Shown here piece after piece: positions 3,138 to 8,890 of a stretch of DNA of 23,900 nt; the stretch's first letter is position 1; each line of letters starts with the position of its first letter. A program made the translations under genes and the position numbers. The notes under the pieces are model-generated. The model saw only the letters and a list, made by a program, of their open reading frames with translations, ran no database searches and was not told where the DNA came from. Source of the DNA: a virus; the IMG/VR virus record IMGVR_UViG_3300034101_000671, positions 1 through 23,900 of that record; one strand, written 5' to 3'.

Positions 3138-3169
3138 CAAATATACATTATTTTTCGTATATTCCCAAA
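3138..3169 (-). promoter_or_regulatory. Candidate Bacteroidota-type promoter for the metallophosphoesterase/neck operon
   Basis: On the minus strand TTTG (3169-3166) is followed, after 20 bases, by TATATTTG (3145-3138). This fits the Bacteroides primary-sigma pattern TTTG-N19-21-TAnnTTTG. It lies in the 54-base gap between the 41-aa gene and the ATG at 3126. Only 11 bases separate the -7 element from the ATG, so the transcript would be nearly leaderless. That is the main doubt. Confidence 0.45.
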
Positions 3170-3180
3170 CTGTTAGTTAA

Positions 3181-3306
3181 CTATTTGACTTTGAAGTAAT
3201 TAGTAATTTTGTCAATGATAGCCTGAGCTGCTTGTTTTAGAGTCATTTGGTTGTATTCCATCAGGATTATCAACCCTACTGCGACTACTAAGAGAATAGT
3301 TTTCAT
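3181..3306 (-). CDS. Small single-TM protein (41 aa), end of lysis cassette
   Basis: A short frame from ATG 3306 to TAG 3183-3181. It encodes an N-terminal hydrophobic segment (residues 3-15, TILLVVAVGLIIL), then a polar amphipathic helix (MTLKQAAQAIIDKITNYFK) with a basic end. The pattern is that of a real N-anchored mini-protein and not of a random frame. The gene runs to just before the candidate promoter and fills space otherwise empty. It overlaps the 3' end of the two-TM protein gene by 95 bases in another frame. Its place after holin and endolysin suggests a lysis accessory, perhaps a spanin-like or regulatory membrane peptide. There is no lipobox Cys, so a classical o-spanin is unlikely. 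Confidence 0.55.
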   Translation of the reverse strand: MKTILLVVAVGLIILMEYNQMTLKQAAQAIIDKITNYFKVK

Positions 3307-3628
3307 CTGTAAAAATTGTTTGAGCTCCGAATCTTCCTTTTACAATAGCTACAATATTTTCAGCTGTCATAAAACCAAGACCCAAGAGAATGATTAAACT
3401 GTATATAATTATAAACTCCACTTGTATCTGTTGAGCAGTATACAGATGGTCTATAAATCCAATATTTAAAAGAACGAAGCAAAAGAAAACTGTAAGTTTC
3501 CTTGCTGAAGCTTTACCCCTAAACTCAAAACTCTTTCTAAGCCAAGGAATTAGCTGAAATAAAGTTGGGCTTCCACCCTCCTTCTGGTTATTAATCCCCG
3601 AATTACTCTGCCTCCTGCTCTTATCCAT
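3212..3628 (-). CDS. Two-TM membrane protein of the lysis cassette
   Basis: A 138-aa protein with a basic, polar N-terminus (residues 1-43) and two hydrophobic segments at about 44-60 (KLTVFFCFVLLNIGFID) and 71-88 (EFIIIYSLIILLGLGF). A motif TAENIVAIVKGRFG follows, then a Ser-rich tail. Its first 79 bases overlap the endolysin gene in another frame; no in-frame ATG, GTG or TTG lies between 3550 and the first TM, so the ATG at 3628 is the best start. It probably acts in the cytoplasmic membrane. As one of two small TM proteins flanking the endolysin it could be a second holin, a pinholin/antiholin or an inner-membrane spanin. The sequence does not decide between these. Confidence 0.72.
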   Translation of the reverse strand: MDKSRRQSNSGINNQKEGGSPTLFQLIPWLRKSFEFRGKASARKLTVFFCFVLLNIGFIDHLYTAQQIQVEFIIIYSLIILLGLGFMTAENIVAIVKGRFGAQTIFTDENYSLSSRSRVDNPDGIQPNDSKTSSSGYH

Positions 3629-3996
3629 TTCATAAACTGATTAGTAATGTCTGGGTCTTTGGGGTTAGCATTTATTCTTTTTAGTAAAGTAGAATTCTTA
3701 AAATTTGTAAGACCTACATTATACGCAAAGGATACTAACGCATCATATTGATTCTGAGTAATATCATCACGAGTCATTGAATCTACCCCAACTTCGTAAT
3801 GTACTAGCAATCTTTTAAGCAAGATTTCTGCCCAATCCTCAGATATAGGAGGGTCAGAAAGTTTAACCCTTGTACCATTTTCATAGTAAGTCGCACCATA
3901 CCCTATTGTAGGTACACCAGCAGAACATAAGTAAGGACTGGACCTAAACCCCTCAAATCTCTTGATTAGGTTTATTCCGTTTTGACTTATTCTCAT
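3550..3996 (-). CDS. GH24 (T4-lysozyme-type) endolysin
   Basis: A 148-aa muramidase. The N-terminus has the family signature: NGINLIKRFEGFR with the catalytic Glu at residue 15, then the beta-turn SAGVPTIGYGA with Thr at 30. The C-terminal half has QYDALVSFAYNVG, the usual helix of GH24 enzymes, and LITRRRVEAQLY at the end, matching the 'GLxxRRxxE' signature. Length is normal for the family. The usual catalytic Asp (Asp20 in T4 lysozyme) is replaced by Cys24; Cys at this place is tolerated in T4 lysozyme and is common in several phage enzymes, so it should still cut the MurNAc-GlcNAc bond. There is no signal peptide or SAR anchor, so a holin is required. It overlaps both neighbours out of frame (44 and 79 bases). 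Confidence 0.95.
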   Translation of the reverse strand: MRISQNGINLIKRFEGFRSSPYLCSAGVPTIGYGATYYENGTRVKLSDPPISEDWAEILLKRLLVHYEVGVDSMTRDDITQNQYDALVSFAYNVGLTNFKNSTLLKRINANPKDPDITNQFMKWIRAGGRVIRGLITRRRVEAQLYFS

Positions 3997-4201
3997 ACTT
4001 GTTTAACTTACTTACAATATATCTCTTAATCTTATTTCCCGACAGGGTGTCTACTGCTACAATAATAGTAGCAAGGTAAGCAGCTCCTTGTAGGGTCTCT
4101 ACAGTTTGTGCAGCTTCAAATAATTTTGCCATTATAATAAATAGTACACTAAGAAGTGTGCCATGTACGCTTTGCATATCTAAAGGTTGGGGTGTTTGCA
4201 T
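3953..4201 (-). CDS. Holin candidate, two TM segments (82 aa)
   Basis: I place the start at ATG 4201 (MQTPQPLDMQ), one base after the stop of the 177-aa gene. The same frame is open up to an ATG at 4327, but that form would overlap the 177-aa gene by 125 bases and add an extra hydrophobic segment. The 82-aa product has TM segments at about 13-29 (HGTLLSVLFIIMAKLF) and 38-52 (QGAAYLATIIVAVDTL), then a highly charged C-terminus (NKIKRYIVSKLNKYENKSKR). A small size, two membrane spans, a basic tail and a place directly before the endolysin fit a class II holin. Family assignment is by architecture and position only. Confidence 0.75.
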   Translation of the reverse strand: MQTPQPLDMQSVHGTLLSVLFIIMAKLFEAAQTVETLQGAAYLATIIVAVDTLSGNKIKRYIVSKLNKYENKSKRNKPNQEI

Positions 4202-6164: not shown

Positions 6165-7466
6165 TTATAGAGTTCTTGAACCTAATTTAATATAAGGACT
6201 TTGCCCGTTTGTATTCCATCCGTCTATACCCATATTTACAGGTACATTAGAATTAATCCATCGTGTAGCAACTGAAGGGTCAAATGTAGCAGGTGGATTA
6301 ACCCAGTACCAACGTCCTGCGTTATTAATATGATTGAACTTAGTATTGGTAGTCAGGTATGGTACATTGTGTACAATCATTTTACCATACGCAGCTGAGT
6401 CAAATGCAATAAGTGTACAATCATATTGAGAATAGATAGTGTCTATATTGCAATACCCATCTTTCAGACGTACATGAAATGCAGCTACAGAAGGTTGCTG
6501 TTCTACATGGCATCCACGTATAGTAAGTTCTTTTACTACATTACTTGCATTGTCATCAAAGAATACCTCGTACTGAGGACCAGCTTGAACACCCTCAAAA
6601 ATGTTATGGTCAAGTACAAGTCCTGATACAGCAATAGCACGTATAGCTGCAAATTGTCCAGCACTATGCCTAAACTTACAATCTCTTACAAGAGAGTGGT
6701 TGCATTGAGACGCACTGTTAGAACCTCCTGTAAACCTAGCATAATCTAGGTCTATACTAATATTATTTTCCCAAAAGTAGCATTGGTCTATTACTGTACC
6801 CATAGTCCAACCACCTTTAAAAGCCGTGGCAAAACTATAAAATCTGCAACCTTGTATTCTTGTACCATAGTTAGCCTGCATATCTATTGCAGTAGCTGTA
6901 CGTCCAGAAGATTCAAAACTAAGGTTAGTAATTCTAAGCTGACAGTCTATGCCTGCATTGGCTTCACTAAGACTAGCATAGGCACGCTTAATTCCTGTCA
7001 TCCCTGAGGGAATAAACAGACGTGACCCATGTCCTTCTATTTCAAGAATCTTGTTATAATTAGCAGGTAGCTCAAGAGTCTTGCTAAGTGTAATGTCAGC
7101 AGCAAGATGAATACTTCTTACAGTACCACTTACCACTCCAGACCATGCAGCTTGTAATTCAGCATCTGTAGATACCCAACGTACAAATCCTATATTAGCT
7201 CCTCCTCCTGTACCACTTGGACCCATAGGACCTACAGGACCCTGAGGACCAGGAATACCTTGTGGACCAGCAGGACCTTGTGCCCCATCTGCCCCATCTG
7301 TACCTTTAAGTGGATTAGTTACTTTAACCCAACCAGTAGGTTGAAAGATATAACTATCTCCATTGTCAAGAATCATCAAATCCCTATTGGTAATAAATCC
7401 ATCAGGGCGTATGGTAGGAAGAGAATCTCTATACCATAATCTAGCTTGGTCTAAGTTGTATTCCAT
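6165..7466 (-). CDS. Collagen-hinged beta-helix tailspike (433 aa)
   Basis: Residues 1-54 are a short head-binding domain (IRPDGFITNRDLMILDNGDS, then GWVKVTNP). Residues 55-85 are ten Gly-X-Y collagen triplets ending in GPSG. A Gly-rich joint follows, and residues 90-400 form a beta-helix (IHLAADITLSKTLELPANYN, IEGHGSRLFIPSGM, many 'xxCxF' turns). The C-terminal section (264-409) is paralogous to that of the 475-aa tailspike next door. The collagen segment likely forms a trimeric stalk between attachment domain and spike. The gene starts at ATG 7466, three bases after the 103-aa gene, and is separated from the next tailspike by one base, so both are made from one message. Role in glycan binding is inferred. 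Confidence 0.85.
   Translation of the reverse strand: MEYNLDQARLWYRDSLPTIRPDGFITNRDLMILDNGDSYIFQPTGWVKVTNPLKGTDGADGAQGPAGPQGIPGPQGPVGPMGPSGTGGGANIGFVRWVSTDAELQAAWSGVVSGTVRSIHLAADITLSKTLELPANYNKILEIEGHGSRLFIPSGMTGIKRAYASLSEANAGIDCQLRITNLSFESSGRTATAIDMQANYGTRIQGCRFYSFATAFKGGWTMGTVIDQCYFWENNISIDLDYARFTGGSNSASQCNHSLVRDCKFRHSAGQFAAIRAIAVSGLVLDHNIFEGVQAGPQYEVFFDDNASNVVKELTIRGCHVEQQPSVAAFHVRLKDGYCNIDTIYSQYDCTLIAFDSAAYGKMIVHNVPYLTTNTKFNHINNAGRWYWVNPPATFDPSVATRWINSNVPVNMGIDGWNTNGQSPYIKLGSRTL
7212..7304 (-). repeat. Collagen-like Gly-X-Y repeat in the 433-aa tailspike
   Basis: Codons for residues 55-85 of the 433-aa protein encode ten Gly-X-Y triplets, mostly GPQ, GPV, GPA, GAD and GPM. The DNA is visibly repetitive (recurring 'gga cc' units on the plus strand) and locally richer in GC than its surroundings. 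Such coding repeats can change length by slippage. Confidence 0.85.
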
Positions 7467-7469
7467 AGT

Positions 7470-7781
7470 TTATATATCTTGTAGTATAGCAGGGGCATCT
7501 GTACAACAACCACATTGGTCACATAATTCCGCAACTTCTTGAATAATATCCTCTATCTGTGCTTCAGTTACACAAGGCTCTGTGTCTAAAAGTACATATA
7601 CAGTATCATAATATCTATTGAGGATAGCTATTAATGCCTGGATATATCTTACATTTTTAAATGCAGGAACTGCGTCAGCCTTTAAAAACATTTCTTGTTT
7701 TAAAGCTTTATACGCCATATCTGCTGCACAACATTGTGCCTTCAGAATAATGTTTAAGAAGTTGGATTGTGTCCTTGCCAT
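7470..7781 (-). CDS. Small Cys-rich helical protein (103 aa)
   Basis: A mostly helical protein with Cys in clusters: AQCCAADM near residue 16, EPCVTEAQ near 69, and a C-terminal ELCDQCGCCTDAP. There is no signal peptide and no classical zinc-finger spacing I can name. It starts with an ATG that overlaps the stop of the collagen-like fibre gene (TAATG) and ends three bases before the tailspike gene. The helix-plus-Cys pattern resembles the C-terminal domain of the 208-aa protein (residues about 140-208) in the same region. Both could be small partner proteins, such as a chaperone, cap or metal-binding clip for the collagen fibre. I do not recognise the family with certainty. Confidence 0.75.
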   Translation of the reverse strand: MARTQSNFLNIILKAQCCAADMAYKALKQEMFLKADAVPAFKNVRYIQALIAILNRYYDTVYVLLDTEPCVTEAQIEDIIQEVAELCDQCGCCTDAPAILQDI

Positions 7782-8890
7782 TAGCTAAGTTCAAATTCAA
7801 TAGTGTCCAGAGAAATATCTGAGTTATATACAGGTATTTTAGAACCAAGAAGGGTTACAATACCTGTAGTTGCAATACTTACTACTCCCCAAATTCCTGA
7901 GAATACATCAAAGATAGGAGCATATTGTAATACAGTAGGTGTATATCCTGCAGGGTATTGGTAAATCTGCACATCAGTATTTATGATGGACGGAGCTGTA
8001 CCATGCTGTATACTACCATTAGTCTTTACACTGTTACCATCCTGTCTGTATCTAGGAGTTCTAGCACTTGCTACATAAGGACTAAAAGGTGTAATGTTCT
8101 GATATGCTGTAATAGGATAAGCATAGGGCAACTGTTGCCACGCTGAACCATTGTAATACCAAAAAGTAGAACTTGTAGTATTAAGATATACATCTCCTAA
8201 TGTCCCTGCACCTACAGGATCTACAGGACCAGAAGTAAAACTACCTGTAGGATTACTAGGAGTTTGTCCTGCACAAAGGTTTACCCAGCCTGATACATAA
8301 GTTACAGAACCTCCTACTACAAAACTACCTAAGGTCAAAGAACCTATAGTAGCTGTACTAGTCAGTACATTTATGTAGCATTGGTTTGTGTATGTAGTGC
8401 TAAAACCTGTACCTGTATTACTTGTAGCATAAGCAAAGTACACATATGCAGAAGTACCATTAGTACCTGCTAATCCTTGGATACCTTGAGGACCTTGTGA
8501 TCCAGTAGCTCCTGCTGCGCCTGTAGCTCCTGTAGCTCCTGCAGGACCTTGCAAACCAGGTGCTCCTTGAGATGCAAGTAATGCCCAATTTGTAGTATCT
8601 ATAACTGGGTTAGAAGCAGAAGGACCTACATTATTAATACAGAAATAAGAAGCTCCTCCATATGCTACTGCATCATCTTGTACATATACACCTAAAGGAC
8701 TCCAAGTGCCTTGCCAATTTAAACCTGCTGGGCCTATTGGACCTGCATTACCTTGTGGACCTTGAGGACCTGTTGCACCTATAGGTCCTTGTGGGCCTGT
8801 TGCACCAACTGGTCCAACTGGACCTACAGGGCCTTGTGGTCCTGCAGTACCTCCAGGAATAGTAAGAATAGGGTCTTGACAACAGCTCAT
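7781..8890 (-). CDS. Collagen-like fibre with carbohydrate-binding module (369 aa)
   Basis: Order of parts: an N-terminal MSCCQDPILTIPGG; 14 Gly-X-Y triplets (residues 14-57); a CBM5/12-like module (57-108) with the typical WQGTWSPLGVYVQDDAV, YGGASYFC and NWALLA; 12 further Gly-X-Y triplets (109-145); and a beta domain beginning NGTSAYVYFAYA (145-180), which is also found near the N-terminus of the 1207-aa fibre. Then come a 'GTLGDVYLNT...WYYNGSAWQQL' strand pair (230-254) common in phage tail fibres, and a C-terminal beta domain. The whole looks like a trimeric, hinged adhesive fibre that binds sugars on the cell surface. It overlaps the next gene's ATG by one base (TAATG). The Cys-Cys start is unusual for a virion protein. 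Confidence 0.88.
   Translation of the reverse strand: MSCCQDPILTIPGGTAGPQGPVGPVGPVGATGPQGPIGATGPQGPQGNAGPIGPAGLNWQGTWSPLGVYVQDDAVAYGGASYFCINNVGPSASNPVIDTTNWALLASQGAPGLQGPAGATGATGAAGATGSQGPQGIQGLAGTNGTSAYVYFAYATSNTGTGFSTTYTNQCYINVLTSTATIGSLTLGSFVVGGSVTYVSGWVNLCAGQTPSNPTGSFTSGPVDPVGAGTLGDVYLNTTSSTFWYYNGSAWQQLPYAYPITAYQNITPFSPYVASARTPRYRQDGNSVKTNGSIQHGTAPSIINTDVQIYQYPAGYTPTVLQYAPIFDVFSGIWGVVSIATTGIVTLLGSKIPVYNSDISLDTIEFELS
8456..8566 (-). repeat. Second collagen-like Gly-X-Y block of the 369-aa fibre
   Basis: This block codes for residues 109-145: 12 triplets dominated by GAT, GAA and GPQ. It is separated from the first block by the CBM-like module, so the protein has two collagen stalks around a sugar-binding domain. 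Confidence 0.88.
8720..8851 (-). repeat. First collagen-like Gly-X-Y block of the 369-aa fibre
   Basis: This block codes for residues 14-57: 14 triplets dominated by GPQ, GPV, GAT and GPI. The plus strand shows near-repeats of ggacct, ggtcct and gcacc, so length variation by slippage or recombination with the second block is possible. Confidence 0.88.

Follow-up and report, generated by a model that had tools for sequence, protein, structure and literature searches.

A Crassvirales lysis cassette with a selected 41-codon gene in the spanin position

The virus record analysed here, a stretch of 23.9 kb referred to as the window, comes from an uncultured Crassvirales phage of the Bacteroidota type and includes its lysis cassette, in which one short gene under selection occupies the position of the spanin, the protein that breaches the bacterial outer membrane. 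This cassette is a real, conserved and partly explained variant, probably corresponding to a canonical holin/endolysin set whose spanin slot is now taken by a short single-TM peptide (p41) encoded by a cut-down spanin ORF. The window belongs to Crassvirales on the basis of its order-specific proteins, namely the major capsid protein (PF23898, E=7.1e-125) and the CrAss_Ring_2 tail ring protein (PF25702, 2.1e-33), and its capsid is ~32% identical to those of named crAss-like phages. The features of the cassette are compiled in Table 1. In the late region, two predicted proteins (433 and 369 aa; 6165-8890, minus strand) contain collagen-like GxxGPxGP repeats.

Table 1. Features of the lysis cassette, with positions in the window
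Feature	Position	Strand	Remarks
82-aa holin-like gene	3953..4201	-	ATG at 4201, TGA stop
148-aa GH24 phage lysozyme (endolysin)	3550..3996	-	ATG, TAA
138-aa two-TM protein	3212..3628	-	ATG, TGA
41-aa single-TM peptide (p41)	3181..3306	-	ATG, TAG
95-base out-of-frame overlap of p41 and the 138-aa gene	3212..3306	-	p41 frame constrained, 138-aa tail not
Promoter-like TTTG-N20-TATATTTG, Bacteroidota-type	3138..3169	-	just upstream of phosphoesterase gene, bounds cassette

The successive ORFs of 82, 148, 138 and 41 aa overlap by 44, 79 and 95 bases, each time out of frame, and they agree exactly with the four overlapping genes described in the initial annotation, whose 68-base overlap between a 66-aa ORF (1853-2053) and a 231-aa ORF was also reproduced. 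An overlapping ORF of 41 codons is by itself not unusual, many spurious ORFs being listed, and it is the conservation of p41 that exceeds chance. Such a gene is plausibly missed by length-filtered gene calling, as had been proposed.

The 148-aa protein, earlier assigned to GH24, indeed matches PF00959 (E=1.8e-38 over 131 residues) and a PHROG endolysin family (9.4e-54), and its triad pattern E15-C24-T30 (E-x8-C-x5-T) is intact, which marks it as the muralytic enzyme of a holin-endolysin cassette. Hydropathy revealed no signal or TM segment in this endolysin, and hence it should be holin-dependent. The 82-aa protein, regarded from the outset as a holin candidate, is holin-like in having two hydrophobic stretches and a strongly basic C-terminal tail, together with a conserved LQ-xx-(A/S)Y...DT(L/M)xG motif. 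In relatives of the window's group it always accompanies the endolysin, with homologues at the same position in L058, L059, L075, L083, L084-L090 and L132. Neither this protein nor the 138-aa protein matches a holin family in Pfam, PHROGs or NCBIfam, the two share no homology by profile comparison, and the AF2 model of the 82-aa protein is helical with low confidence (pLDDT 69). Its size, hydropathy, tail charge and position suggest that it is the holin.

The 138-aa protein contains a two-TM-helix hairpin preceded by a basic N-terminal part and carries a C-terminal R(V/I)(D/N)NP motif (RVDNP in the window). Its core and this motif are conserved among homologues in L003, L058, L059, L075, L132 and L084-L090, with no homologue in the cassette of L083. 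Its AF2 model is of low confidence (pLDDT 56); Foldseek with this model returned nothing at E<=0.001, its profile found no match among PDB sequences, and GTDB genomes yielded no confirmed relative. Weak Pfam matches (DUF2496, NADH5_C, Anoctamin and Transmemb_17) were discarded as below cut-offs or unconvincing. Among annotated phage records, no homologue of the 82-aa protein, the 138-aa protein or the spanin-like protein of L132 was found. The 138-aa protein is considered a candidate accessory protein of the holin or antiholin kind.

Relatives were identified by searches with the 138-aa protein, the endolysin, the ring protein, the phosphoesterase, the holin and spanin-like proteins, and in many related contigs the holin-like gene, the GH24 endolysin and the two-TM gene recur in this order. 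Overlaps of 44, 79 and 62-95 bases are present in L003, L058, L059 and near-identical contigs wherever the contig covers them. The large overlap of 79 bases between the lysin and two-TM genes occurs only in these closer kin of the window, distant relatives having 1-22 bases, and the holin/lysin overlap amounts to 44 bases in L083 and L132 and to 0-4 bases in L075 and L084-L090. The interval between the endolysin and the phosphoesterase was found in several layouts. In the window, L003, L058, L059 and near-identical contigs it holds the two-TM gene and a gene of 41-51 codons; in L075 and L132-L134 the two-TM gene is followed by an ORF of 160/162 aa with a lipobox and a C-terminal TM segment; in L084-L090 only the two-TM gene is present, and L083 has neither the two-TM nor the short gene. 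The phosphoesterase of L083 (3501-4568) contains an in-frame TGA after PGNHDM, reflecting decay or an assembly error, and this contig needs caution. Phosphoesterase and endolysin trees left undecided in which order gains and losses took place and which state is older. An undescribed multi-component release mechanism, as suggested by the initial annotation, is not established by these data, since L075 and L132 show the ordinary order of holin, endolysin, accessory two-TM protein and unimolecular spanin, and p41 lies in the spanin position.

Whether p41 encodes a protein was addressed by comparing the window with L003; across the last two genes, 70 of 448 bases are different between them. The observed differences were placed at random in 5000 draws and residue-changing codons were counted. 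The p41 frame has 6 such codons against 14.1 expected, a value as low being reached in none of the 5000 draws; its overlapping part alone has 4 against 9.9 (P=0.0002) and the short end outside the overlap 2 against 3.7 (P=0.09). Within the 95-base overlap, 4 residue-changing and 8 silent codons in the p41 frame stand against 12 and 0 in the 138-aa frame. The core of the 138-aa protein is under purifying selection (5 residue-changing codons, 22.1 expected), whereas its tail over p41 (12, 10.9 expected) and its head over the endolysin (10, 10.2 expected) are unconstrained. Thus, p41 is protein-coding, and the sequence of the 138-aa protein in its overlapping ends is set by the neighbouring genes. 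The claim that the 41-aa gene is real is thereby borne out by purifying selection on its frame, and the expectation of selection in the overlapping frames holds for p41 and the 138-aa core but fails for the ends of the 138-aa gene over its neighbours. The frames of L058 and L059 also favour coding (6 residue-changing codons, 10.5 expected, P=0.005). This pair lends weak support to p41, because the region is unusually similar at the DNA level: positions 1460-1700 of L058 share 85-98% DNA identity with L059 over the short gene and the spacer, with ~75% around them, to which recombination or a promoter or other conserved regulatory stretch may contribute.

Frame conservation across relatives, which the initial annotation had proposed as a check, gave a divided answer: the p41 frame is kept in all closer-kin contigs (the L003, L058 and L059 group), and L084-L090 and L083 lack the gene. 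With p41 and a spanin both missing from the slot in these contigs, either that clade can do without the peptide or its function is supplied elsewhere. The same absence would be expected if p41 were a non-functional leftover of a spanin, or if the region were conserved for a reason of DNA or RNA, and the L058/L059 block conserved at the DNA level and the promoter-like motif that follows p41 point in the same direction. The TAnnTTTG part of this motif occupies the equivalent position in L003, L059, L075, L083, L092, L094 and L132 and is absent from L084/L089, in which the two-TM gene comes right up to the phosphoesterase gene, and the promoter-like match by itself is not significant in the window. 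However, the constraint between the window and L003 acts at the codon level, the p41 frame is open in 4 of the 4 lineages having p41, and the overlap region has no Rfam match and an ordinary RNA fold (z=-1.04), for which reason a structured RNA was rejected; a leftover or a purely nucleic-acid signal is accordingly improbable. It is more improbable still that p41 extends beyond 41 aa by TAG readthrough in late genes, as in some crAss-like phages. Among 24 genes checked in the window p41 is the only one ending in TAG, and PMC10136315 discusses recoded lysis genes in crAss-like phages. However, read with the standard code, the late genes form long open frames, on which ground readthrough was rejected, and the sequences of the window and L003 after the TAG differ in the aligned DNA.

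The last gene can be compared with the ORFs found in the same slot of relatives. The 160/162-aa ORFs of L075 and L132 contain ILTSSC and TILTSC, respectively, near the N-terminus and a hydrophobic segment at the C-terminus, the two hallmarks of unimolecular spanins, and are therefore taken as candidate unimolecular spanins. They are related to spanin-like ORFs that precede the phosphoesterase in L092-L097, where the neighbour is a different 80-aa protein and no GH24 gene was seen adjacent. The more distant phage L152 encodes a TM-coiled-coil protein, then a protein that is amidase-like by inspection and, directly after it, a homologue of the spanin candidates, a position that supports this family as lysis proteins. 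Other proteins with a lipobox and a C-terminal TM segment lie directly beside related GH24 endolysins in L005-L007, L011 and L012, and are apparently further u-spanin families.

The peptide p41 has a single N-terminal hydrophobic stretch and lacks a cysteine, a lipobox, a periplasmic domain and a C-terminal TM segment. Its homologues in three further lineages comprise 41-51 codons, with 85% identity in L003 and 35% in L058 and L059. Lacking any cysteine, p41 and the L058/L059 forms do not carry the lipobox of a T1 gp11-type unimolecular spanin, and with 41-51 aa and an N-terminal hydrophobic segment only they do not span the periplasm to a C-terminal TM segment. What connects them with the spanin candidates is the position of the start: an ATG in the +1 frame lies 29 bases upstream of the RVDNP codons in the window, L003, L058 and L059 as well as in the spanin candidate of L075, and 32 bases upstream in that of L132, with a second ATG 26 bases upstream in L058 and L059. 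L084 and L089 have no open +1 frame at this position. The shared start and frame speak for a single ORF behind p41 and the spanin candidates, which has met different fates downstream. When p41 was compared with the spanin family by profile, no significant protein similarity emerged, and hence the case for descent is built on position, start and frame; since the RVDNP codons of the overlapping gene are conserved, some of the resemblance between the signal regions is imposed by them. On balance, descent of p41 from a spanin ORF is judged likely.

The lack of significant similarity to spanins, and the large divergence of the 50/51-aa forms of L058/L059 from the 41-aa form (35% identity), would also fit a loss of the spanin and the rise of an unrelated overlapping ORF in its place, for example one encoding an antiholin or a second membrane-permeabilising peptide. 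Such a newly arisen peptide would not be expected to begin in the same +1 frame and at the same distance from RVDNP as the spanin ORF of L075, and this origin is considered the less likely of the two, albeit a serious one. A further reading takes the 138-aa and 41-aa genes as a two-component spanin pair of the Rz/Rz1 type, for which an overlapping out-of-frame order 3' of the endolysin is a usual layout (PMC6139136, PMC9636201). However, the 138-aa protein contains a pair of TM helices and lacks a periplasmic domain, and p41 has no cysteine to form a lipobox; with the wrong topology and no lipobox, this assignment is contradicted by the sequence and very improbable.

The preferred reading, a canonical set with a cut-down spanin ORF in the last slot, would operate as follows. 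The 82-aa two-helix protein would act as the holin and open the inner membrane at a set time, upon which the cytosolic GH24 endolysin would reach and cut the peptidoglycan, as in ordinary tailed phages of Gram-negative hosts, and the 138-aa two-TM hairpin would serve as an inner-membrane accessory, probably tuning the holin. In L075 and L132, the final slot would supply a candidate unimolecular spanin, whose signal-peptide codons lie in another frame within the tail of the two-TM gene; in the window, it would supply a cut-down spanin ORF of 41 codons, retained by selection as a lysis accessory acting at the inner membrane. A membrane-acting accessory in lysis is the most likely role of p41, with about an even chance of being correct, and a role outside lysis is possible. 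Disruption of the outer membrane by p41 as a stand-in for a spanin is possible but unlikely. Similarly, it is rather unlikely that a unimolecular spanin reduced to a membrane-anchored peptide of 41-51 residues still completes outer-membrane disruption, either alone or with the two-TM protein; if true, it would represent a spanin-free route whose origin from a spanin ORF is still visible.

With regard to a spanin encoded elsewhere, no homologue of the L075 spanin was found in two contigs with the short gene (54 kb and 38 kb) or in a 33.5-kb contig that has the two-TM gene only, and hydropathy and lipobox scans of the window and these three contigs gave no convincing spanin, all of these records being fragments. 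At the end of a crAss-like contig of 33.5 kb, L122 (G003 29861-31409) comprises bacterial-looking signal-peptide and lipoprotein ORFs, one with CATSGCHS, which may reflect a chimera or acquired genes.

Several known systems are instructive for comparison. Spanin types and overlapping spanin genes are described in PMC6139136, according to which 91 of 677 surveyed phages (about 13%) have no recognisable spanin, and whether spanin-less phages use disruptins or something else is stated as an open question in PMC12819732. Within the available parts of these two papers and of PMC10136315, which treats crAss-like phage lysis genes including recoded stops, and which together represent part of the literature, the arrangement of the window was not found described. 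Bacteroides phage crAss001 similarly has small TM proteins beside a peptidoglycan enzyme (gp27-gp30), but the enzyme is annotated as an L,D-carboxypeptidase/transpeptidase, the site lies just upstream of the capsid gene region and no overlapping short peptide is annotated. The late region of Cellulophaga phage phi14:2 (Crassvirales, Akihdevirus) has, at the place that corresponds to the cassette of the window and in the same order, an endolysin, a membrane-anchored protein, a calcineurin-like phosphoesterase, a ring protein and an IHF-like gene, which adds to the synteny of the cassette. It differs in that its endolysin is annotated by similarity to PF00182 instead of GH24, and in that this enzyme is flanked by a TM-PAS protein and an N-TM protein of 192 aa, with no homologue of the two-TM protein seen.

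Disruptins such as that of phage phiKT are short, amphipathic peptides that resemble antimicrobial ones and act by disrupting the outer membrane (PMC12819732); like them, p41 is a short peptide in a cassette without a recognisable spanin. The C-terminal part of p41 is amphipathic with a net charge of +2 in the window, and amphipathic in L003, whereas amphipathicity is not kept in L059. Shuffled sequences equal or exceed the hydrophobic moment in 1-2% of cases for the window and L003, 5% for L058 and 47% for L059, with charges of +2 to +3 among these forms. Unlike the disruptins, p41 has a hydrophobic N-terminal segment, and a disruptin-like role for it has weak support.

The closest likeness is to the canonical cassettes of holin, endolysin and unimolecular spanin (T1 gp11 type; PMC6139136), with which the window shares a small holin-like membrane protein, a muralytic enzyme and a last gene in the spanin position; in the relatives L075 and L132, this position is filled by a candidate u-spanin. 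By comparison, the last gene of the window has 41 codons and encodes no lipobox, periplasmic domain or C-terminal TM segment, an extra two-TM protein lies in between and the overlaps are larger. As a real 41-codon gene overlapping another out of frame, p41 provides a worked case of its kind. Together, the related cassettes, whose common slot is filled by a candidate spanin, by a short conserved peptide or not at all, constitute a natural series, in which it can be tested how outer-membrane disruption is lost or replaced.
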